Source of the DNA: a virus
Virus record (IMG/VR): IMGVR_UViG_3300044464_000115
Coordinates: 1-21,045 of that record
DNA length: 21,045 bases
Strand: one strand, 5' to 3'
Made by a program: the position numbers and the translations under genes. Shown one piece after another: positions 1,566 to 20,521 of this stretch. The notes beneath the pieces were generated by a model. The model was given only the letters and a program-made list of their open reading frames with translations, did no database searches and was not told the origin of the DNA. The first letter of the stretch is position 1, and every line of letters starts with the position of its first letter.

Positions 1566-1669
1566 CTTGCTAAATAGCGCAGGGGTGGGATAGGGTGCGC
1601 GTTTCTGCAAGCGGCGACGCCCGAGTGTGACGCTCGAGCGCCGCCTTAACCGCAGTCAGGAGACACCTC

Positions 1670-1687
1670 ATGGCGGAGGCAATGTGA
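1670..1687 (+). CDS. five-codon minicistron (MAEAM) coupled to the ATPase start
   Basis: ATG GCG GAG GCA ATG TGA is preceded by AGGAG at about 1659-1663, a good ribosome site with 6-7 nt spacing. Its TGA (1685-1687) overlaps the GTG start of the ATPase gene as GTGA. It may couple translation of the ATPase gene, or mark a recent frameshift near an older ATG start. It is very short, so it could be chance. Confidence 0.25.
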   Translation: MAEAM

Positions 1688-2619
1688 CAGTAGCAAATTC
1701 TGCTACTCGCAGTCAAGCATTCCCAGACCCAATCCCTGGGATCATCACCTTCGGCAGCCTCAACCTCTTGGCCGGCGCGTCTGGCGTGGGCAAAACCTGT
1801 CTCATGGCGTGGGTGCTCAAGCGGCTCAGGGACGGGCTTCCCATCTTCGATCGCGAGACCAATGCTCCCGCGAAGCTCGGCTTCATCTGTGCGGACCGAG
1901 GGGAGCTGACCGCGCGGTATTGGCTGGACAAGGCCGACTATCAAGACATCGCGTTTTACTCCCTCGCCGACGATGATGCGTTCAACACGAGTCGGCTGCG
2001 GAGCAAGGTCACCCTGATTAAGATCCTGGGGGAGTGTTTCGACAAGCTGCAACTACCCCCCGGGTCCCTTGCAGTGGTGGATCCTCTTGCGCTGTTCATG
2101 GGGGGCAACCTCAACGACTACACGAACTGTGCGGTGGCGTGTCTTGAGATGCGGCGGGAATGTCGGCGCCGGCAGATTACCCTCATCGGAACCGCGCATG
2201 CCTCGAAGCAGAAATCCGATCGGAAGGAACGGTACGAGCGACTACAGGATCGCATCCTGGGGTCGACAGCACAATTGGGGTACGGTGATACCCAGTTGTA
2301 CCTCGCCTCCCCCGAGGAGACAGGTGAGCGGTTCTATACGTTCCTCTGGCACTCCCACACCGCCCCTGCCGAGGTCTTCCCCCTGGGGCGGAATAAGGAA
2401 GGACTTTTTGTCCCTTGGGCAGAAAGCGCACAGTCAGACGGGGAGAAGAAGATCCTCAGCGTGATCACGACTAACGAGGAGGGTACCGCCTTTGCCGACA
2501 TCCTGATCGCGTCGGAGATCCCGAAGACCACGGTATTTCGCACGCTCCAGGATCTGATCAAAGACGGACGTCTCCTGAAGGTGGGACATGGACGCTACCG
2601 AAAACCCGCGCTCAACTGA
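1684..2619 (+). CDS. RepA-like / AAA_25-type RecA-fold ATPase (replicative helicase candidate) with C-terminal winged helix
   Basis: The protein is 311 aa from GTG 1684. That start is preferred because GGAGG lies at 1675-1679; an upstream GTG at 1627 adds 19 residues but has no ribosome site. Walker A is GASGVGKT (residues 31-38). Walker B is SLAVVDPLALF (Asp about 133), followed by a sensor-like TLIGTAHASKQ, the order seen in RepA/GspA-like hexameric helicases and RecA-like AAA_25 proteins. Residues about 255-311 (EKKILSVITTNEEGTAFADI to RTLQDLIKDGRLLKVG) look like a winged helix-turn-helix that could bind DNA or load the ATPase. It opens a plus-strand block and is followed about 200 bp later by an array of GTTCCA repeats, which fits a replication initiator/helicase beside its origin. 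A recombination or regulatory ATPase is the alternative. Confidence 0.8.
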   Translation: MTVANSATRSQAFPDPIPGIITFGSLNLLAGASGVGKTCLMAWVLKRLRDGLPIFDRETNAPAKLGFICADRGELTARYWLDKADYQDIAFYSLADDDAFNTSRLRSKVTLIKILGECFDKLQLPPGSLAVVDPLALFMGGNLNDYTNCAVACLEMRRECRRRQITLIGTAHASKQKSDRKERYERLQDRILGSTAQLGYGDTQLYLASPEETGERFYTFLWHSHTAPAEVFPLGRNKEGLFVPWAESAQSDGEKKILSVITTNEEGTAFADILIASEIPKTTVFRTLQDLIKDGRLLKVGHGRYRKPALN

Positions 2620-8751: not shown

Positions 8752-9930
8752 TTAGACCGTGACCAGGGCGGCGCCACGTTTAAGGACCAGCGCGGCGAGC
8801 TGATCCAGGACGAGGCGATCGTCCTGGTACCCGCTCTCCTGGCTGTTCCGCGTCAGCCCTTGCGCGATGCCCCAGAAGCTGCGCGGGCTGGCGGCCTCTT
8901 TCTGCTCGGTCGTCGCGTACGCCTCCTCCGCCTGCTGTTTGGTTGCGCCCATCTTCTTGAGTTCATCGATCACGGCCTCGCGGGTGTGCGCGATTTCGTG
9001 GTCGATAAGCCCGCGCACGATCGCCTCGTCACTGGCGGCCGTGCGGTTAGTAAACTTCCACGCCAGATCCTGCAGTTCGCGCATTGTGTCGCGGGTGATC
9101 TTGGTGCCGACGTGGCGGCGCCTGAACTGGCGATCCATGATCGCCCCCCAGAGCATGTGATTGCCGCAGATGTAGCGAAACAGAATGCTTTCGATCGTGA
9201 TGCTGCAGTGCCCCACTTCGGAGTTGCGGAGCATCAAGCCGCGGAACATGCCATCCGTCGGCCCGGTGGTGTCGGTGGGCTGTCTGAGTCCTGCACCTGA
9301 TCCGGGTCGGTTGCTGAGGCTCGGATCCGTCACGATCGATCCGCCGTTCACCACGATCACAAACGAATCCCGATCGCCACGGTACGCGCCGGCTGGCGTG
9401 CCGTCCCACGTGGGCGGGGTGATCCAGCGGCTGTCTGTGTCCATGAAGCGGCGCGCAAGCTCACCATAGAGGCTCGCGTCCCAGACTCGGCCGTAGGTGT
9501 CGGAGGTGGCTGCGCGGATGATCGGGGTTCCGCCGTTCGCCTTGACCAGCAGGTTCGCCGCGGTGCCGGCGGGGCTCTCCTGTAGCCCGTGATTGATATT
9601 CCTGGCGGCGAGCTCCGGCGGGAGGGTGCGGAGGTAGCTGGCGGGTGCGCCGATGGTCCGGGCAAGCTGACCGAAGGCGTAGTGGGTGAGCTGGGCGCGG
9701 CCGTTGGGCGACTCGAGGCGGAGTACGTCGCGTGTGGTGTTACCGCTGAAGCTGGGCTGCTCGATCGTCTCGGTCACTGCGCGGAGATCCTTGAGGTTGT
9801 ACGTCCGCTCGGCGCTGTGGTCCTTGTCGTACTGGGCCGCTGCGACCAGGGCGGCGACTGAGGCGAAGCGTTCGTCTGCAGGGCGCTTGTAGTACTCGGA
9901 TTGTGCGGTTGCGATGTTGGTCTCTCTCAT
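8752..9930 (-). CDS. DUF932-type phage/plasmid protein (392 aa)
   Basis: The start is ATG 9930, overlapping the upstream stop (ATGA), with AGGAG as ribosome site. Residues about 85-115 (YAFGQLARTIGAPASYLRTL, ELAARNINHGL) and 135-160 (IIRAATSDTYGRVWDASLY) match the pattern of DUF932 proteins common in phages and plasmids. The middle has beta-rich FVIVVNGGSIV and RGLMLRNSEVGHCSITIESI; the C-terminal third is helical (EAVIDELKKMGATKQQAEEA). The family's biochemical role is not established. It is by far the largest gene in this operon. Confidence 0.78.
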   Translation of the reverse strand: MRETNIATAQSEYYKRPADERFASVAALVAAAQYDKDHSAERTYNLKDLRAVTETIEQPSFSGNTTRDVLRLESPNGRAQLTHYAFGQLARTIGAPASYLRTLPPELAARNINHGLQESPAGTAANLLVKANGGTPIIRAATSDTYGRVWDASLYGELARRFMDTDSRWITPPTWDGTPAGAYRGDRDSFVIVVNGGSIVTDPSLSNRPGSGAGLRQPTDTTGPTDGMFRGLMLRNSEVGHCSITIESILFRYICGNHMLWGAIMDRQFRRRHVGTKITRDTMRELQDLAWKFTNRTAASDEAIVRGLIDHEIAHTREAVIDELKKMGATKQQAEEAYATTEQKEAASPRSFWGIAQGLTRNSQESGYQDDRLVLDQLAALVLKRGAALVTV

Positions 9931-10777: not shown

Positions 10778-11482
10778 ATGCAACAACCTGCACCAGCTCC
10801 ACTCCCCGGCTTCCAGCGGACCTACGCGGTCGTCATGGGGACCTGTGCGCGGCCAGGCGCGAGTTACATCGAACCAACCCTCGCGAACCTTCGGCGGTCA
10901 GGGTGGCCGGGTGCGCAGCGCATCCTGGTCATCGACAGCATGGAGCGTACGCGCAACCAGACCGGCATTGCGTGCCTGGAGGCGGGCCTCGCCACCGGGG
11001 CGGAGTGGATACTGTTTCTGGAGGATGACATCCAGGTGTGCGACGACTTCCTGGGGTCGGTGGATCGGTGGATCGCGGAGCGGCCTGAGCCTGCGGCGCC
11101 CACCCTGTATACCTTCTATTGTCCGTTCGGACGCGCCTTTCATGAGGGGCGAGACGGCGCGTGGAACTATCCCCTCCAGTTGTTCAATGGGTGTCAGGCG
11201 TTTGCGCTCCGCTCAGCCGATGTCAGCGGAGCCCTCACATGCCTGCGGCGCCTGCTACCGACCTGGGGCTCCCCCGGGGGCTTCGATCGCTTGCTGAGCG
11301 CGTGGCTCCTGGCCTGTGGCGGGCAGATTCTCGCCTCGGTGCCGAGCTTCGTGCAGCATGTGGGCTATCAGACCGCGATGGGCTACCCCCACTGGCATCA
11401 GTCACCGACCTTCCCTGGGACCGACTGGCAATATCCGTCCGGGCGCCTCGAGGACTTGACCACGAGCCGCCGGCAGGCATAG
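10778..11482 (+). CDS. glycosyltransferase, GT-A-like (234 aa)
   Basis: Starts MQQPAPAPLPGFQRTYAVVM. The order is that of a GT-A fold: an N-terminal strand YAVVMGTCARP, the stretch RILVIDSMERTRNQTGIACL, then LATGAEWILFLEDDIQVCDD at about residues 70-90, where EDD fits the DxD-type metal/nucleotide-sugar site. A later acceptor-side segment ends VPSFVQHVGYQTAMG, as in family-25-like and other phage glycosyltransferases. It may modify phage DNA, virion protein or host surface sugars; the substrate cannot be told. No ribosome site precedes the ATG, and translation may be leaderless. It opens the packaging/virion operon. Confidence 0.7.
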   Translation: MQQPAPAPLPGFQRTYAVVMGTCARPGASYIEPTLANLRRSGWPGAQRILVIDSMERTRNQTGIACLEAGLATGAEWILFLEDDIQVCDDFLGSVDRWIAERPEPAAPTLYTFYCPFGRAFHEGRDGAWNYPLQLFNGCQAFALRSADVSGALTCLRRLLPTWGSPGGFDRLLSAWLLACGGQILASVPSFVQHVGYQTAMGYPHWHQSPTFPGTDWQYPSGRLEDLTTSRRQA

Positions 11483-12960: not shown

Positions 12961-15162
12961 ATGTACCACCCGGTCATCGTGGCGGCGCAACAGGAGCGGC
13001 TCGAAGCCCAATTCGGCCTCCAGCTGCAGCGATTGCCTGCGGCGCACTGCCACGCGATGCGGACGAGCCTCGACACGATCTATGACGTCGAGACCCGCGA
13101 GCCCACCCGCGCCTTCTCCCAGGACGAGGAAGCCTTCATCCTGAACGAACAGTTGCTGGTCAAGATCGACTACCGGTACGCGGCAGAGCGCTACATCTGG
13201 ATCAACTACGCCGGCCAGAGCCTGCGCCCCATGTACCCCCTCTGGGAAAGCCAGGAACTCATCCTGGCGGAACTTGCCCGCGTCGAGTACGACCACTGGA
13301 CCAGCGGCCACCCCGATGGTTTATTGTTTAACATCTTGAAAGGACGACAATTAGGTGCATGTGTCGAAGGAAATACGAAAGTCCTGACCGCCGACTTGCG
13401 CTGGGTTACTGTTGAGGAATTGGCGGTTGGGACGGAAGTCATCGCGACGGATGAGGAATCGCCTGGGGGGCGGGGCGCTTCTCGAAAGCTGCGTACTGCA
13501 GTCGTCGAGGCGAAGTGGGATGTGTTAGAACCCGCGTTTGAGGTAGTGCTGGCGTCTGGTACATCTATCGTGTGCTCTGCCACTCATCGATGGCTGTACC
13601 GGACACGTACGCAGACGACGGTCGCGTGGCGTGCGGTAGCGGACATGAAAATCGGGGGGTACATCAGGCGGATTACCGAACCGTGGGGTAGTTCTACCCT
13701 TGAGGATTACTGGATGGGTGGGATGCTCGATGGGGAGGGGAGCGGGGGGGCGAAGGGGTCGGGGGGTGTTGAGTTCTGCGTCTCCCAGGTGTACGGACCG
13801 GTCTATGACAGGGCCGCCCGGTACTTCCGTGAGCGGGGGTACGCCTCATTCCACCAGGACCCTCCAGACCTCCGGACCCCTGAGACCTCCTCGAAGTTCG
13901 GCCGAAAGCCCGTCGGTAAGATGAGCGTTGCGCGAATGAGCGAGATCTTCCGGCTGATCGGGCTAACCCGGCCTACCAGATTCCTCGGGCGGCGGTGGTG
14001 GGAGGGGAAGGAGCTTCCTGGGAAGCGTACTGGGGGGTACGGGTGGGATCGTGTTATGGTGGTGCGCCCACTTGGTCGGCGCCGGCTGTTCGACCTCCAG
14101 ACCTCCACCAAGACCTTCATTGCGGAGGGGCTTGTTTCGCACAACTCCACCCTCGTGCAGAGCCTCCTGGCGCACCGGGTGCTGACGCATGGGCAGGTCC
14201 GCACGCTGGTGGCGAGCGATGTCCCCCAGAACAGCGGATCGGAAGGCCTCTTCGGGATGCTCGAATTGGTCGTCGAGAAGTGGCCCTGGTGGCTCAAGCC
14301 CAAGGAGCTCTACCACACCAAGAATCGCCATATCATGTGGAAGAACGGCTCCCGGGTGATCGTGGAGTCAGGCAAATCGATGAAGGGGGGCCTGCAGGAA
14401 GAGGGGGGCGAGAAAGGCCAGCTCGGTCGCTCGAAGACCTACTCCGCCGTTCACCTCTCCGAGATCACCACCTGGGAGCGCCCTGAGCAGATCAACAGCT
14501 CCCTCCTACCGGCGGTGCCGATTACCCCCCGGACCCTCATGGGGCGCGAATCCACCGCGATGGGCAGGAATAATTATTGGCACCAGGAATGGAAGAAGGC
14601 CGGTGCGGGGATCGACCCCCGATTTTTCAACATCTTCATCCCCTTCTACGCGGAGAAGACGAAATACTGGCTCCCCTGCCCACCCGGGTGGAGCCCCAGC
14701 GATGACACCCTCGCGTTCGCGCGGCGGGCCACCGAACAAGGTCCTCAGTACATGCACCGGGCCGTCCAGCTCACGCGCGAGCAGCTCTATTGGTACGAGG
14801 TGATGAAGGCTGCCGCAGTCCACGACGACGAGCTCTACCGGTTCCTGAGTGAGTACCCTTCAGAGCCGGAGGAGGCCTTCCAGAACTCGGGGCGCAGCAT
14901 CTTCTCGGTCGCGACGATGGACCGCTTGGAGAAGCAGGGCCGTCCCCTCATCGACCTCTGGACGGTCGCGCCGCGGGCTGAGCTGATTGCCGATCGGGAG
15001 GCGTCCCTGGCGGAGTACAAGGAATCGCAGGCCCAGCTGGTCGCGCTGGGAGCCAAGCAGCGGCTGCGCCACGCCTCGACGACCCTGGACACCAACGACC
15101 CGATCACCCTGCGGGAAGAGACCGTCGCCACGACCGAGATCGAACCGGAGCCGGCGGCATGA
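12961..15162 (+). CDS. terL: terminase large subunit, ATPase domain, interrupted by an intein
   Basis: The ORF encodes 733 aa, of which 134-395 are an intein; the spliced ATPase would be 471 aa. Across the splice junction the extein reads GRQLGA-STLVQS, an Arg-containing deviant Walker A common in TerL proteins. Walker B is AVHLSE (496-501, catalytic Glu 501) and the coupling motif is ESTAMG (530-535). The LSEYPSEPEEAFQNSGRSIF segment is the usual end of a TerL ATPase domain. The RNase H-fold nuclease is absent and appears as a separate ORF at 15389. Role: ATP-driven DNA packaging through the portal. Residues 660-733 form a charged helical tail. Codon use just upstream of the intein is unusually AT-rich. 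Confidence 0.88.
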   Translation: MYHPVIVAAQQERLEAQFGLQLQRLPAAHCHAMRTSLDTIYDVETREPTRAFSQDEEAFILNEQLLVKIDYRYAAERYIWINYAGQSLRPMYPLWESQELILAELARVEYDHWTSGHPDGLLFNILKGRQLGACVEGNTKVLTADLRWVTVEELAVGTEVIATDEESPGGRGASRKLRTAVVEAKWDVLEPAFEVVLASGTSIVCSATHRWLYRTRTQTTVAWRAVADMKIGGYIRRITEPWGSSTLEDYWMGGMLDGEGSGGAKGSGGVEFCVSQVYGPVYDRAARYFRERGYASFHQDPPDLRTPETSSKFGRKPVGKMSVARMSEIFRLIGLTRPTRFLGRRWWEGKELPGKRTGGYGWDRVMVVRPLGRRRLFDLQTSTKTFIAEGLVSHNSTLVQSLLAHRVLTHGQVRTLVASDVPQNSGSEGLFGMLELVVEKWPWWLKPKELYHTKNRHIMWKNGSRVIVESGKSMKGGLQEEGGEKGQLGRSKTYSAVHLSEITTWERPEQINSSLLPAVPITPRTLMGRESTAMGRNNYWHQEWKKAGAGIDPRFFNIFIPFYAEKTKYWLPCPPGWSPSDDTLAFARRATEQGPQYMHRAVQLTREQLYWYEVMKAAAVHDDELYRFLSEYPSEPEEAFQNSGRSIFSVATMDRLEKQGRPLIDLWTVAPRAELIADREASLAEYKESQAQLVALGAKQRLRHASTTLDTNDPITLREETVATTEIEPEPAA
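13318..13359 (+). other. AT-rich extein tract next to the intein (possible co-conversion tract)
   Basis: These 42 bp encode GLLFNILKGRQLGA, the extein directly upstream of the intein. Only 15 of 42 bases are G or C, and codons such as TTA, TTG, TTT, AAA, GGA and CGA are used, in contrast to the GC-ending codons before it and after the intein. The pattern fits a stretch of donor extein copied along with the intein during homing. Confidence 0.5.
13360..14145 (+). mobile_element. intein (262 aa) with one LAGLIDADG-like motif in TerL Walker A
   Basis: It begins with Cys1 (CVEGNTKVLTADLRW, splicing block A) and ends LVSHN before Ser +1, the canonical N- and C-terminal splicing residues. Block B is GTSIVCSATHRWL (T75, H76). 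Block F is RRLFDLQTSTKTFIAEG (243-257), with Lys where many inteins have His. DYWMGGMLDGEGS at about 116-128 matches the LAGLIDADG endonuclease motif; no second copy is visible, so the endonuclease may be single-motif or decayed. It is inserted between Ala and Ser of the deviant P-loop, so splicing is needed for a working ATPase. The frame is intact throughout. Confidence 0.88.
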
Positions 15163-15392
15163 CGGATCGCAAAATGAAGGTCGAGGTGAAGTCCTCCATC
15201 ACTCCTCCGCCGGAGGAATGGGTGGTGCCCGATCACCTGAAGGGCCGCTCCTGTGTCCTGTGCGGCTTCCCCTTCCAGGACGGCGACACGCACGGGGAGA
15301 TGCAGGATGACGGGATGACCCTGATCTGCCACACGCGGATCCAGGTCAAGGAACCCCGTCAGTGTAAAGTGATCGAGGGGATAACCGAGTGA
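15159..15392 (+). CDS. small Cys/His protein between the two terminase halves (77 aa)
   Basis: Starts MTDRKMKVEVKSSITPPPEE, with ATGA overlap to the ATPase gene; its stop overlaps the GTG of the nuclease gene. It contains CVLCGFPF (about residues 32-39), a His in GDTHGEM, CHTRI (about residue 57) and a later Cys, so one zinc site is plausible. No endonuclease motif is present. Its position exactly between the ATPase and nuclease parts of the large terminase makes a packaging-related role possible. No family is recognised. Confidence 0.65.
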   Translation: MTDRKMKVEVKSSITPPPEEWVVPDHLKGRSCVLCGFPFQDGDTHGEMQDDGMTLICHTRIQVKEPRQCKVIEGITE

Positions 15393-16348
15393 TCCTCCAG
15401 TTCCCCGAAGCCCGCCCCCACTACGCGATTCCCCCGGGGTTCGGCTTCCACAGATTGACCGTCAGGGAGCTCGGTGAGCGCGGCGGGGATCGCGCCCTGT
15501 TCAACTGTCTCCAGATGTGGCAGCACCCCCGGAAGGGACACCGCTATGTCATGGGGGTGGATGTCGGCGATGGTCTCGGCCTCGATCGCTCCGTCGTCGA
15601 TGTCATGCGCATGGGGACGATCGACGAATGTGAGGAGCAGGTCGCCCAATTCATCTCTGACACCACGGCCCCCAGGGCGCTCGCCGGGATCATCGACGCG
15701 GTGGGTCACCTCTACAAGTGGCCCGACGGGCGCGAGGCGATGGCCGCGATCGAGTGTAACAACCACGGCCTCTCGACCCAGGACACCCTGCAGCTCCATC
15801 TCGGCTACCGGCACTTCTTCATCTGGGAAGTCCTCGATCAGGCCGACCCGAACAAGCGCTGGACGACCAAGATGGGCTGGGTCACCACGAACCGCACCCG
15901 GCCTATCCTCCTGGATCAGTTCTACACCGGGGTCACCACGATTGACCCGATTACCGGCTATAGTGACTGCCGCATCAACTCACAGTTTACCCTGGATGAG
16001 ATGCGGGACTTCCAGACGGATGGCAGCTTGTGGGAGGCCGAAGCCGCGAAGGGCGCCTTCGATGACTGCATCATCGCCGGGGGGATCGCGCACTATGTGT
16101 GCTGGCGCCTCCAGGGCGGGGAGACCGAGCCCCTGGCGGATCGACGACGGCGGCGTGCGGAGGAACAGCGCAGGCGATTGCGAGCTGGGGACCACAAGCA
16201 CCTGGACTACCGGAATAGCGATATGACCGCCCAGGACCAACGTCAACAGGAGGGGCTCAGCCCCGAGGAGCGGCAGGAGATCGATGATGACACCGACGGA
16301 CTCTTCTACGACCCCGACTCTCGAGGGAGCGGCGGGACCCTCTATTGA
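15389..16348 (+). CDS. terminase large subunit, RNase H-fold nuclease domain as separate ORF (319 aa)
   Basis: GTG start at 15389 overlaps the upstream stop (GTGA). YVMGVDVGDGLGLDRSVVDV supplies the first catalytic Asp (D58, with D61 and D66 near). AAIECNNHGLSTQDTL gives E121, and AKGAFDDCIIAGGIAHY gives D224/D225, the acidic triad of TerL nuclease domains. The segment WTTKMGWVTTNRTRPILLDQ is also typical of TerL. It would cut concatemeric DNA at the start and end of packaging. No ATPase motif is present. The Arg/Glu-rich tail (DRRRRRAEEQRRRLRAGDHK) may contact DNA or partners. Whether it joins with the ATPase in trans is not known. Confidence 0.85.
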   Translation: MILQFPEARPHYAIPPGFGFHRLTVRELGERGGDRALFNCLQMWQHPRKGHRYVMGVDVGDGLGLDRSVVDVMRMGTIDECEEQVAQFISDTTAPRALAGIIDAVGHLYKWPDGREAMAAIECNNHGLSTQDTLQLHLGYRHFFIWEVLDQADPNKRWTTKMGWVTTNRTRPILLDQFYTGVTTIDPITGYSDCRINSQFTLDEMRDFQTDGSLWEAEAAKGAFDDCIIAGGIAHYVCWRLQGGETEPLADRRRRRAEEQRRRLRAGDHKHLDYRNSDMTAQDQRQQEGLSPEERQEIDDDTDGLFYDPDSRGSGGTLY

Positions 16349-17736: not shown

Positions 17737-19872
17737 ATGCCTGACTTCTCGCCTTCTGGCCTCTACGGGCTGCCGCCGATTACCGCCGACGGCCTCCGTC
17801 TCGGCGGTGACCCCCGGGTGCTGGGGTGGATCACCGAGGCAGTCCAGGAGGGGGACCTGATCAACCGCCAGGATCCCGCCTTCGAGATGGCCGACAAGGG
17901 GATGCGCTACATCATTGGAGAACAGCGCGACAACGCGCAGCTGACCCTCCAATATATTCCGTTCGCGGTGATCAACAAATCCCGCAAGGCGACCCAGGCC
18001 CATGTGTCGGCGCTGACCGATATCAAGCCGGTCTTCGGCTACCGGGCGACCGACCCGAATTTCAGCTTCCACGGCGACCTCCTCAACCGCCTGACGGTGG
18101 CCTGGTGGCTCGAGGCGATGGCCGATCTCACCCTCGGCGATTGTATCAAGTACGCCCTCGCAGGGGGCACCGGGGATCTGGCCATCGAATGGGACACCTC
18201 GGCTTCCTTCGGGACCGGCGATCACAAGATCATCGCGAAGGACTTCCGGGACACCCTCGCGATTCGTCCCAGCTCAGATCCGTCGCCGCAGCTCTGGCAG
18301 GGGGTCATCTTCCGGGAGGCGCATTCGATCAACGCCATGCGCTCGAAATACAAAGAGTTCGAATCGGCCTTCCGCCCGGCGCCAGACAACCTTCTCACCA
18401 CGATCATGAGCCGCTTCCGCCATATTGTCGCGCGTATCCAGACCCCCGCGGCCGACACCCTCTCAGGCCTCGCCTCCATTCCCGCCGCGCGCCCGGTCCG
18501 CCCGGGGGATGTCGTGCTCTACCGCACCTACTTGAATGACCTCACGCGCAACCTGACCAACAAGCCGATCGTCATGGGGGACCCCACGGCCAACTGGTCC
18601 TACGTCGTCGAGCCCGGCGGCCCCCTCTACCCGCAGAAGCGCCTCATCGTCTCCACCCCGGAACTGATCCTGTACGATGGCCCGAACCCCTTCTGGCACT
18701 CGATGTACCCCTTCAGCCGTCTCAAGCTCTGGTCGGTGCCCTGGTGCTTCCTGGGCCTCTCGCTCCTCCACGACACGATCCCCATCCAGGACGCGATTAA
18801 TGACTCGATGAAGGACCTCAGACTGGGTATTAAGCAATGGACCAACGCCGACACGCAATTCGACAAGCAGTCCGTCAGTCGCGCGTTCCAGCAGGCGTTC
18901 GACCCGCAGCGCCCAGGCAAGAAGATCGGCATCTCCATGCTCGGATCCCCCTCCAGGGAGCCCTACAAGAAACTCGACGGCCCGAACCCCCAAGTATTGA
19001 GTCTCCTCCTGGAAGTCTACCGGCAGCTCTGTACCGAGCACGACGAACAAACGGGCGTCGCCAACCTCCAGCAGCTCATGCAACTCCGCCAGATGCCTGG
19101 GGCCGACACCATTCAGAAGTACTACGAAGCCCTCACCCCGGAGCTCAGACAAGAGGGGCGCAACGTGGAAGCCTTCCTCCGCGACGTCGCGCAGATGCAC
19201 AAGTTCAACATCTTCCAGTTCCAGACCTCCAGCCGCCGCATGAACATCTTGGGCGACGCCGGGCTGGCACTCGAGGACTTCGATTTCGACGCCGACTCCC
19301 TGGTCCCCGCGATGGAGGCGCAAACGATGACCCCCGACCCGATGACGGGAGTCCCGACCCCACAGGCGACCCCTGGCTATAAGCCTGAGCTGGATCGCTC
19401 GAAAGCGCGTAGCGTGCGTGCCAAGGCCTTCGCCAAGATGTTCATCTTCACCGTGGCCCCCAACTCGATCCTGGCCATGTCGTCGCAGGAAAAGAAGATG
19501 ATGAATTTCCAGCTGGCGCGCATGGGCTACCTGGACTTCTGGACGCTCCACGAATCCCTGGAAACCCCGAACATCGGGACCCCACCCCCGATCCCGCTCC
19601 CGCCGCTCCAGATGCCCGACGACCCGGCAGTCCTGCTCATGGGCCTCCAGGCCGGCAAGTTCCTTCCGGACCCGCAGCGCCCGGGCCAGTTCCTGGAGAT
19701 CCGCACCCCGATTACGGTGACCGAGCGGCTTATAGCACAACAGCTTCTTGGCATTGGAATGACAGAGAACCCGGCCGGGCGGAAATCTTCAGGACAGCAA
19801 GCCCCAAAATCAGAGGAAAAGAAGGATGAAACTGGCGCACCACGACAGACTATCACGGAAAGTCCTAAGTAG
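17737..19872 (+). CDS. portal protein (711 aa)
   Basis: The large size, position after the terminase, and sequence support a portal: the ring at the capsid vertex through which TerL pumps DNA. An N-terminal part contains GMRYIIGEQRDNAQLTLQYI and HVSALTDIKPVFGYRATDPN. The central core has YPFSRLKLWSVPWCFLGLSL followed by IPIQDAINDSMKDLRLG, the wing/stem-like arrangement of portals. Helices follow with LTPELRQEGRNVEAFLRDVA. The region about 525-560 is Pro-rich. The last 40 residues are Ser/Lys/Glu-rich (GRKSSGQQAPKSEEKKDETG) and encoded by less GC-rich DNA. The stop overlaps the stop of the opposing HNH gene by 8 bp. Confidence 0.8.
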   Translation: MPDFSPSGLYGLPPITADGLRLGGDPRVLGWITEAVQEGDLINRQDPAFEMADKGMRYIIGEQRDNAQLTLQYIPFAVINKSRKATQAHVSALTDIKPVFGYRATDPNFSFHGDLLNRLTVAWWLEAMADLTLGDCIKYALAGGTGDLAIEWDTSASFGTGDHKIIAKDFRDTLAIRPSSDPSPQLWQGVIFREAHSINAMRSKYKEFESAFRPAPDNLLTTIMSRFRHIVARIQTPAADTLSGLASIPAARPVRPGDVVLYRTYLNDLTRNLTNKPIVMGDPTANWSYVVEPGGPLYPQKRLIVSTPELILYDGPNPFWHSMYPFSRLKLWSVPWCFLGLSLLHDTIPIQDAINDSMKDLRLGIKQWTNADTQFDKQSVSRAFQQAFDPQRPGKKIGISMLGSPSREPYKKLDGPNPQVLSLLLEVYRQLCTEHDEQTGVANLQQLMQLRQMPGADTIQKYYEALTPELRQEGRNVEAFLRDVAQMHKFNIFQFQTSSRRMNILGDAGLALEDFDFDADSLVPAMEAQTMTPDPMTGVPTPQATPGYKPELDRSKARSVRAKAFAKMFIFTVAPNSILAMSSQEKKMMNFQLARMGYLDFWTLHESLETPNIGTPPPIPLPPLQMPDDPAVLLMGLQAGKFLPDPQRPGQFLEIRTPITVTERLIAQQLLGIGMTENPAGRKSSGQQAPKSEEKKDETGAPRQTITESPK

Positions 19873-20521
19873 TCAATTGTCGCTTGGGACTCCAACGTCT
19901 TCCACGACTGGGAGTTGTCAGTGCGACAGCAACGGGCCATCCGGCTTGTCGGATGCGGTAATACAACGCAGATTCAGGAATGCTAGTCTTTTCCGCCCAT
20001 TCCCCCAGTGTCAGAGCCTGTCCGTCGTAGACTACGCGAAAGTTCTTCCGTGTGTTTCGACCTTGCTCCAGTCGAGTCGCCCACCGACAATTCGTCGAGC
20101 TGTACGGACCGTTGTTGTCGCGCCGATCCAGGGTTGCACCGATCGGGCGTGGCCCCATGTCTGTGGCGAACTGTTCAAAGCTCGCCTGCCACGTTTGACA
20201 CACGGTGATTCCACGTCCACCGTACCATTGGTACTTCGCATCGGAGGGATTCAAACAACGCCCCTTCATGACCGACCAGATCCGGTAGAGGGGCGATCGT
20301 GCCTGTCCGTGCGTACGCCGCGCCGTCTTCACCGTCTCGGCATGCAGACAGCCGCAGCTCTTGGTCTCCCCCTTCCGCAGGGTATTCGCGCGCGTGGTGA
20401 TCTCGTTCCCACAGTCGCAGCGACAGCGCCAACGCGCCTTGCCAAAGCGATCGTTCTCGGCGCGATCGATCACGATCAGCCGTCCAAAGCGTTGCCCATC
20501 GAGGGGAGTGGGTGCAACCAC
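19865..20521 (-). CDS. HNH-family homing endonuclease (218 aa)
   Basis: The protein opens with RFGRLIVIDRAENDRFGKAR and a Cys cluster, CRCDCG (33-38) with SCGC (55-58), a zinc-binding module. It continues with LYRIWSVMKGRCLNP (78-92), WYGGRGITVC (99-108) and TLDRRDNNGPYSSTNCRWAT (130-149), the signature of the phage YGGRGI...DRxDNNGPYSPxNCRWAT HNH family. The C-terminus (about 165-205: LTLGEWAEKTSIPESALYYR, GWPVAVALT) is the usual helix-turn-helix DNA-binding repeat. It appears full length. The start is GTG 20521; TGCTACACT at 20529-20537 on the minus strand looks like an extended -10 placed so that mRNA would begin near the start codon. It lies between portal and the next virion gene, opposite in strand. 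Confidence 0.85.
   Translation of the reverse strand: MVAPTPLDGQRFGRLIVIDRAENDRFGKARWRCRCDCGNEITTRANTLRKGETKSCGCLHAETVKTARRTHGQARSPLYRIWSVMKGRCLNPSDAKYQWYGGRGITVCQTWQASFEQFATDMGPRPIGATLDRRDNNGPYSSTNCRWATRLEQGRNTRKNFRVVYDGQALTLGEWAEKTSIPESALYYRIRQAGWPVAVALTTPSRGRRWSPKRQLTT

Follow-up and report, generated by a model that had tools for sequence, protein, structure and literature searches.

A predicted class 1 intein in the P-loop of a viral terminase ATPase and its relatives at the same site

Background

Inteins in the P-loop of terminases have hitherto been catalogued mainly in mycobacteriophages. In these phages Kelley et al. (2016; PMC5050341) reported inteins at seven sites within terminases, of which two lie in the P-loop; five were demonstrated to splice and two to cut. 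They argued that splicing must come before assembly of the motor, observed that the terminase inteins tested spliced readily, and considered inteins as possible sensors. One of these inteins, TerL1-a, sits between the Lys and Thr of the Walker A motif (PMC5050341).

We analysed a 21,045-nucleotide stretch of viral DNA (positions 1 to 21,045 of IMG/VR record IMGVR_UViG_3300044464_000115; hereafter the window), in which a terminase ATPase gene carries an intein. Like TerL1-a and TerL1-b (PMC5050341), this intein lies in the Walker A motif of a terminase ATPase domain, combines a Hint domain with an endonuclease, is distributed sporadically and has intein-free siblings; it differs from them in belonging to a different terminase family. 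A tblastn search of 50,697 phage records with the window's intein (E 1e-3) gave no match to TerL1-a or TerL1-b; inteins diverge quickly. The closest annotated element is the Pham3880-g intein of cluster C1 mycobacteriophages (e.g. LRRHood gp245), which is 31% identical over its full length (pairwise E 3e-34) and shares the DGEG motif and the TSTKT...HN end, but is inserted after YLASSPY, where there is no P-loop, in another, terminase-like protein; its ScottMcG version has been shown to splice (PMC5050341). Terminase P-loop inteins are already known (Kelley et al. 2016), and the window's intein is a well-supported addition to a known type of selfish element rather than biology of a novel kind.

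Results and discussion

An intein between the two parts of the P-loop

The terminase ATPase ORF (12961-15162, plus strand, 733 aa) contains an in-frame insert of 262 aa at 13360-14145 which has no stops, corresponds to ORF residues 134-395, begins with Cys1 and ends with Asn262; the next residue is Ser+1. The insertion point falls between Ala133 and Ser134 of the ATPase P-loop (KGRQLGA/ST; here and below a slash marks the insertion point), which, going by alignment to the T4 gp17 motif SRQLGKTT, is presumably the position of TerL1-a. The first part of the P-loop, GRQLGA, is encoded at 13342-13359, and ST at 14146-14151 would complete it after splicing. The N-extein (12961-13359, residues 1-133) ends in NILKGRQLGA, and the C-extein extends from Ser+1 through the stop codon (14146-15162), all on the plus strand; the exteins rejoin to GRQLGAST with a joined length of 471 aa, as the earlier note on this DNA had stated.

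That note had read the insert as an intein within the terminase P-loop and proposed an intein HMM search, and the HMM matches, a precise empty site in a relative (see below) and a model of the Hint fold all agree with it. Intein residues 1-101 match NF038136, an intein-containing family of NCBIfam (E 1.1e-19); of the profiles searched, this one fits the N-terminal splicing region best, and it represents the Rv2578c-family radical SAM intein, although the latter resides in a bacterial host protein unrelated to terminase. Residues 16-262 match PF14890 Intein_splicing (E 1.9e-4) with 21.7 bits, under the Pfam cut-off of 35.8 bits, so that an automatic annotator would overlook the window's intein; such genes are easily mistaken for odd 700-aa terminases. 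We assign 13360-14145 (plus strand) as a class 1 intein, a putative splicing element in the terminase P-loop.

The residues expected of class 1 form a complete set (Cys1, His76, Asp245, His261-Asn262 and Ser+1), and C1, H76, D245, H261 and N262 are invariant in all 37 TerL inteins compared. With every class 1 residue present, the unusual splicing chemistry that had been suggested for this element is not supported, and a class 3 intein is ruled out by the presence of Cys1 together with Asp245 in block F. Block B (13576-13587, plus strand), previously given as TxxH, in fact reads SATH (S73-H76); Thr is the commoner first residue among TerL inteins (24 Thr, 12 Ser, 1 Gly; n = 37). The C-terminal splicing region (14035-14145, plus strand) comprises block F, with D245, and block G (GLVSHN). 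The Lys in place of a usual His, also taken as an oddity, is K251, a variable position among TerL inteins (24 Gly, 9 Lys, 2 Arg, 1 Gln and 1 Ser).

In an AlphaFold2 model of the intein (pLDDT 93.4), a single H-E-E-H-E-E-H module splits the Hint domain. By VIA-align the model scores Z 19.1 to the DnaB mini-inteins 6frg and 1mi8 (rmsd 1.7 over 132 residues), and the Hint fold is also that of the solved structures of Ssp DnaB, Mtu RecA and gp41-1 (Z 18-19, 122-135 residues aligned), although these mini-inteins or splicing domains come from other genes and share about 20% identity with it. The VIA-align matches are taken up by the splicing domain, which is why LAGLIDADG structures do not prevail among them; Foldseek places PI-PfuI and PI-SceI high.

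The host protein is one half of a two-gene terminase

The model of an intein-free ortholog, L014 (pLDDT 71.7), has a well-predicted core consisting of a strand (residues 121-127), a loop and a helix (133-147), and the insertion lies at the loop-helix boundary of the P-loop. R129, Q130, G132, S134 and T135 are invariant in 14 relatives. As the insertion splits the P-loop, splicing has to precede ATPase function, a point that Kelley et al. (2016) had made for mycobacteriophage TerL.

The best Foldseek match of the L014 model is the T4 gp17 ATPase (E 5.7e-11), and tblastn of the ATPase to annotated TerL gave E 7e-19. Pfam searches with the ATPase and its relatives gave no terminase family match, and a sequence search of the PDB with the terminase profile gave no match; DUF1554 matched two of the 14 relatives (E down to 2.6e-4), which we took as chance. 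The terminase ATPase identity is based on predicted fold and weak tblastn matches. The terminase profile found no relative in a scan of 84,980 genomes (prophage/host).

The terminase nuclease domain has its own gene (15389-16348, plus strand; phrog_38407, E 2e-14; phrog_24361, terminase, E 9e-6), whose product matches the C-terminal part of the fused TerL of Tunturi_1 and ctuNt529. In these cultured or complete relatives the ATPase and nuclease halves are fused, whereas the window and each of the 21 related loci (including L014, L015 and L017-L032) encode them in separate ORFs, the nuclease gene often overlapping the ATPase stop by 4 nt (ATGA). With the nuclease half a separate gene, the packaging motor is a two-gene terminase; our search of the literature on split ATPase and nuclease terminase genes found nothing specific. 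In the window and L016, its sibling, a 77-aa ORF with a CxxC...C pattern (15159-15392 in the window) stands between the ATPase and nuclease genes; it is absent from L014 and L015, and L008 and L022 have other extra ORFs or gaps there.

Empty, occupied and differently occupied sites among relatives

The ATPase of L014 (the same contig as L002) lacks exactly the residues of the insert: KGRQLGASTLVQ. It is an uninterrupted protein of 471 aa reading NILKGRQLGA/STLVQ at the site, and is 93% identical to the window in the N-extein and 99% in the C-extein. The site is empty in 14 distinct relatives and occupied in the window and its sibling L016, in L015 and in L026. Alignment of intein-free relatives across residues 134-395 had been named by the earlier note as evidence that would speak against an intein; the 14 distinct intein-free relatives lack these residues, which favours one. 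Overall, an intein is present at three of 17 distinct loci in the window's terminase clade and at three of 74 in a second family.

We found that similarity of the inteins does not follow that of their hosts. The window and L015 have exteins that are 96% and 97% identical, yet their inteins are just 56% identical, whereas the window and L026 (the same contig as L012) have inteins that are 65% identical within exteins of 51% and 58% identity. In the intein tree the window pairs with L012 (support 100/95), and an approximately unbiased (AU) test rejects the inteins of the window and L015 (the same contig as L035) as a single clade (P = 0.011). A 56% identical intein in a near-identical phage, together with this rejection, implies that the element moves or is replaced, and the sequences indicate that inteins at the P-loop site have been replaced or separately acquired. 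Phages whose terminase proteins are 93-99% identical provide a natural series of three states (empty, one intein, and a second, divergent intein), ready material for tests of homing and splicing.

A clade of inteins specific to the terminase P-loop

A scan with the intein alignment found 80 loci, the junctions of which were then read. Among the inteins analysed, 35 occupy the same terminase P-loop position (typically [AG]RQxGx/[ST]), three are in terminases just ahead of the P-loop, and 28 related inteins are in other genes. The 38 TerL inteins group together (99% SH-aLRT) to the exclusion of their relatives in other genes, so that a single clade holds the same P-loop site across many uncultivated and very different phages. 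The three inteins outside the P-loop position (L037 3001-3774, L060 124-972 and L068 3001-3855) are sister inteins located a few residues before the motif, with Cys+1, and have their own supported branch; an adjacent site is in this way occupied by the same lineage. Outside terminases, a related intein in L086 (3001-3801) splits an apparent RecA-type P-loop (GPE/SAGKT).

Across 666 pairs, the inteins have a median identity of 49% and the C-exteins (first 280 aa) one of 28%; in 653 pairs the inteins resemble each other more closely than the exteins do, although a few of the extein comparisons cover very short alignments and cannot be relied on. A single ancient insertion followed by vertical descent would leave exteins at least as well conserved as inteins; the opposite is observed, which agrees with repeated movement of the intein among unrelated phages.

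The element is very probably a class 1 intein with an endonuclease, placed between residues 133 and 134 of the ATPase, that excises itself and homes and belongs to a lineage specialised on terminase P-loop coding DNA. For splicing, an acyl shift at Cys1, transfer to Ser+1 and cyclisation of Asn262 aided by His261 would release the intein and restore GRQLGAST. For homing, the LAGLIDADG domain with its one motif, probably in dimeric form, would cut intein-free terminase genes near the P-loop, and repair would copy the intein plus some of the upstream flank.

Foreign-looking codons upstream of the intein

The last 14 codons of the N-extein (13318-13359, plus strand) are foreign-looking in their synonymous codons. 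Between the window and L014, synonymous differences affect 11 of the 14 upstream codons and 122 of 405 elsewhere (P = 0.0003), and the window differs from both of its close relatives at 10-11 of the 14, against about a third elsewhere; downstream of the insertion, five of 14 codons differ from L014, which is no excess. Compared with the codon use of its gene, the last 39 nt of the window's N-extein have a GC3 deficit of 0.56, which exceeds that of all 85 empty alleles.

This one-sidedness extends to other members. With the window left out and empty alleles matched for GC3, the same upstream deficit (39 nt) amounts to 0.145 for 14 intein alleles, against 0.010 for 58 empty ones (P = 6e-5), whereas in the downstream flank the two groups do not differ (P = 0.74); these tests treat related sequences as independent, which makes the P values optimistic. 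TTR leucine and TTT phenylalanine account for much of the upstream signature. In tests of single pairs, upstream significance is clear in the window's pairs only; of the other pairs, L015 with L014 gives P = 0.08 upstream (but P = 0.007 downstream), L026 with L030 P = 0.25, and L036 with L113 P = 0.27.

The likeliest source of the signature is one-sided co-conversion from lower-GC donors during homing. The main alternative, which concerns this signature only and which we consider possible though less probable, is that the endonuclease prefers alleles already AT-rich at the P-loop DNA, the flank not being carried. TTR Leu, TTT Phe and CAA Gln do recur upstream of the intein in two matched terminase families, and some empty alleles (e.g. 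L008) have CAA TTA, as such a preference would have it. In the window, however, the codons differ from those of both close relatives, which points to change at or after invasion, and in all 35 cases examined GC3 is lower in the intein than in its extein, which would be expected had flank and intein arrived together. A degenerate pattern scan for a donor of the upstream flank returned only the window's sibling and an unrelated, low-GC terminase without an intein.

Co-conversion would extend the account given above: one viral intein lineage would home to terminase P-loop DNA in proteins of less than 30% identity and bring about 40 nt of upstream DNA with it, a reading of the whole that we put forward tentatively and at somewhat short of even confidence. 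If it is true, unrelated phages swap a piece of the motor's ATP-binding loop together with the intein. The one-sided signature also makes a testable prediction on the position of the cut and the direction of repair.

The endonuclease domain is conserved

The LAGLIDADG-type homing endonuclease domain spans approximately residues 108-225 (13681-14034, plus strand), with one motif, WMGGMLDGEG (13711-13740, plus strand), that includes D124 and E126. The earlier note saw a single LAGLIDADG motif, as we do, and took it to suggest a decaying endonuclease. Such an element would retain splicing, carry a relic endonuclease and be inherited vertically, and the absence of a significant LAGLIDADG match for the window's intein in a Pfam search would be in keeping with this. 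One motif is, however, the state of the whole family, in which PF14528 LAGLIDADG_3 is matched by four of 52 members; with one motif per chain, the endonuclease probably works as a dimer. D124 and E126 are invariant in all 37 TerL inteins and across the 52-row intein alignment, the alpha-beta-beta-alpha-beta-beta-alpha module is complete in the model at high pLDDT with the LAGLIDADG helix ending in the catalytic acid, and dN/dS of the domain is 0.06-0.21 (pairs with finite, unsaturated dS only), which indicates purifying selection. Vertical inheritance is opposed by the divergent inteins in near-identical hosts, the rejected grouping and the presence or absence of the intein among close relatives. 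We consider decay very improbable; as judged from these comparisons, the intein is probably still mobile.

Equally improbable is a conditional splicing switch selected to time DNA packaging, for which it can be said that an unspliced ATPase with a split P-loop should be inactive and that inteins have been discussed as possible sensors (PMC5050341), but which is opposed by the sporadic presence of the intein (hence not needed), standard catalytic residues, a sequence in which we noticed no sensor feature, and the ready splicing of mycobacteriophage TerL inteins in tests (PMC5050341). We found no evidence of redox or other control of splicing, and packaging control by splicing is speculation.

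Other genes in the window

An HNH endonuclease gene at 19865-20521 (minus strand; phrog_374, E 9e-67) overlaps the end of a large ORF on the opposite strand (17737-19872) and is a probable second homing gene. Pfam matches identify an AAA_25 ATPase, DnaB/RecA-like, at 1627-2619 (plus strand) and a DUF932 protein at 8752-9930 (minus strand). Adjoining the packaging genes, the ORF at 10778-11482 (plus strand) has a weak glycosyltransferase match (phrog_854, E 1e-5).
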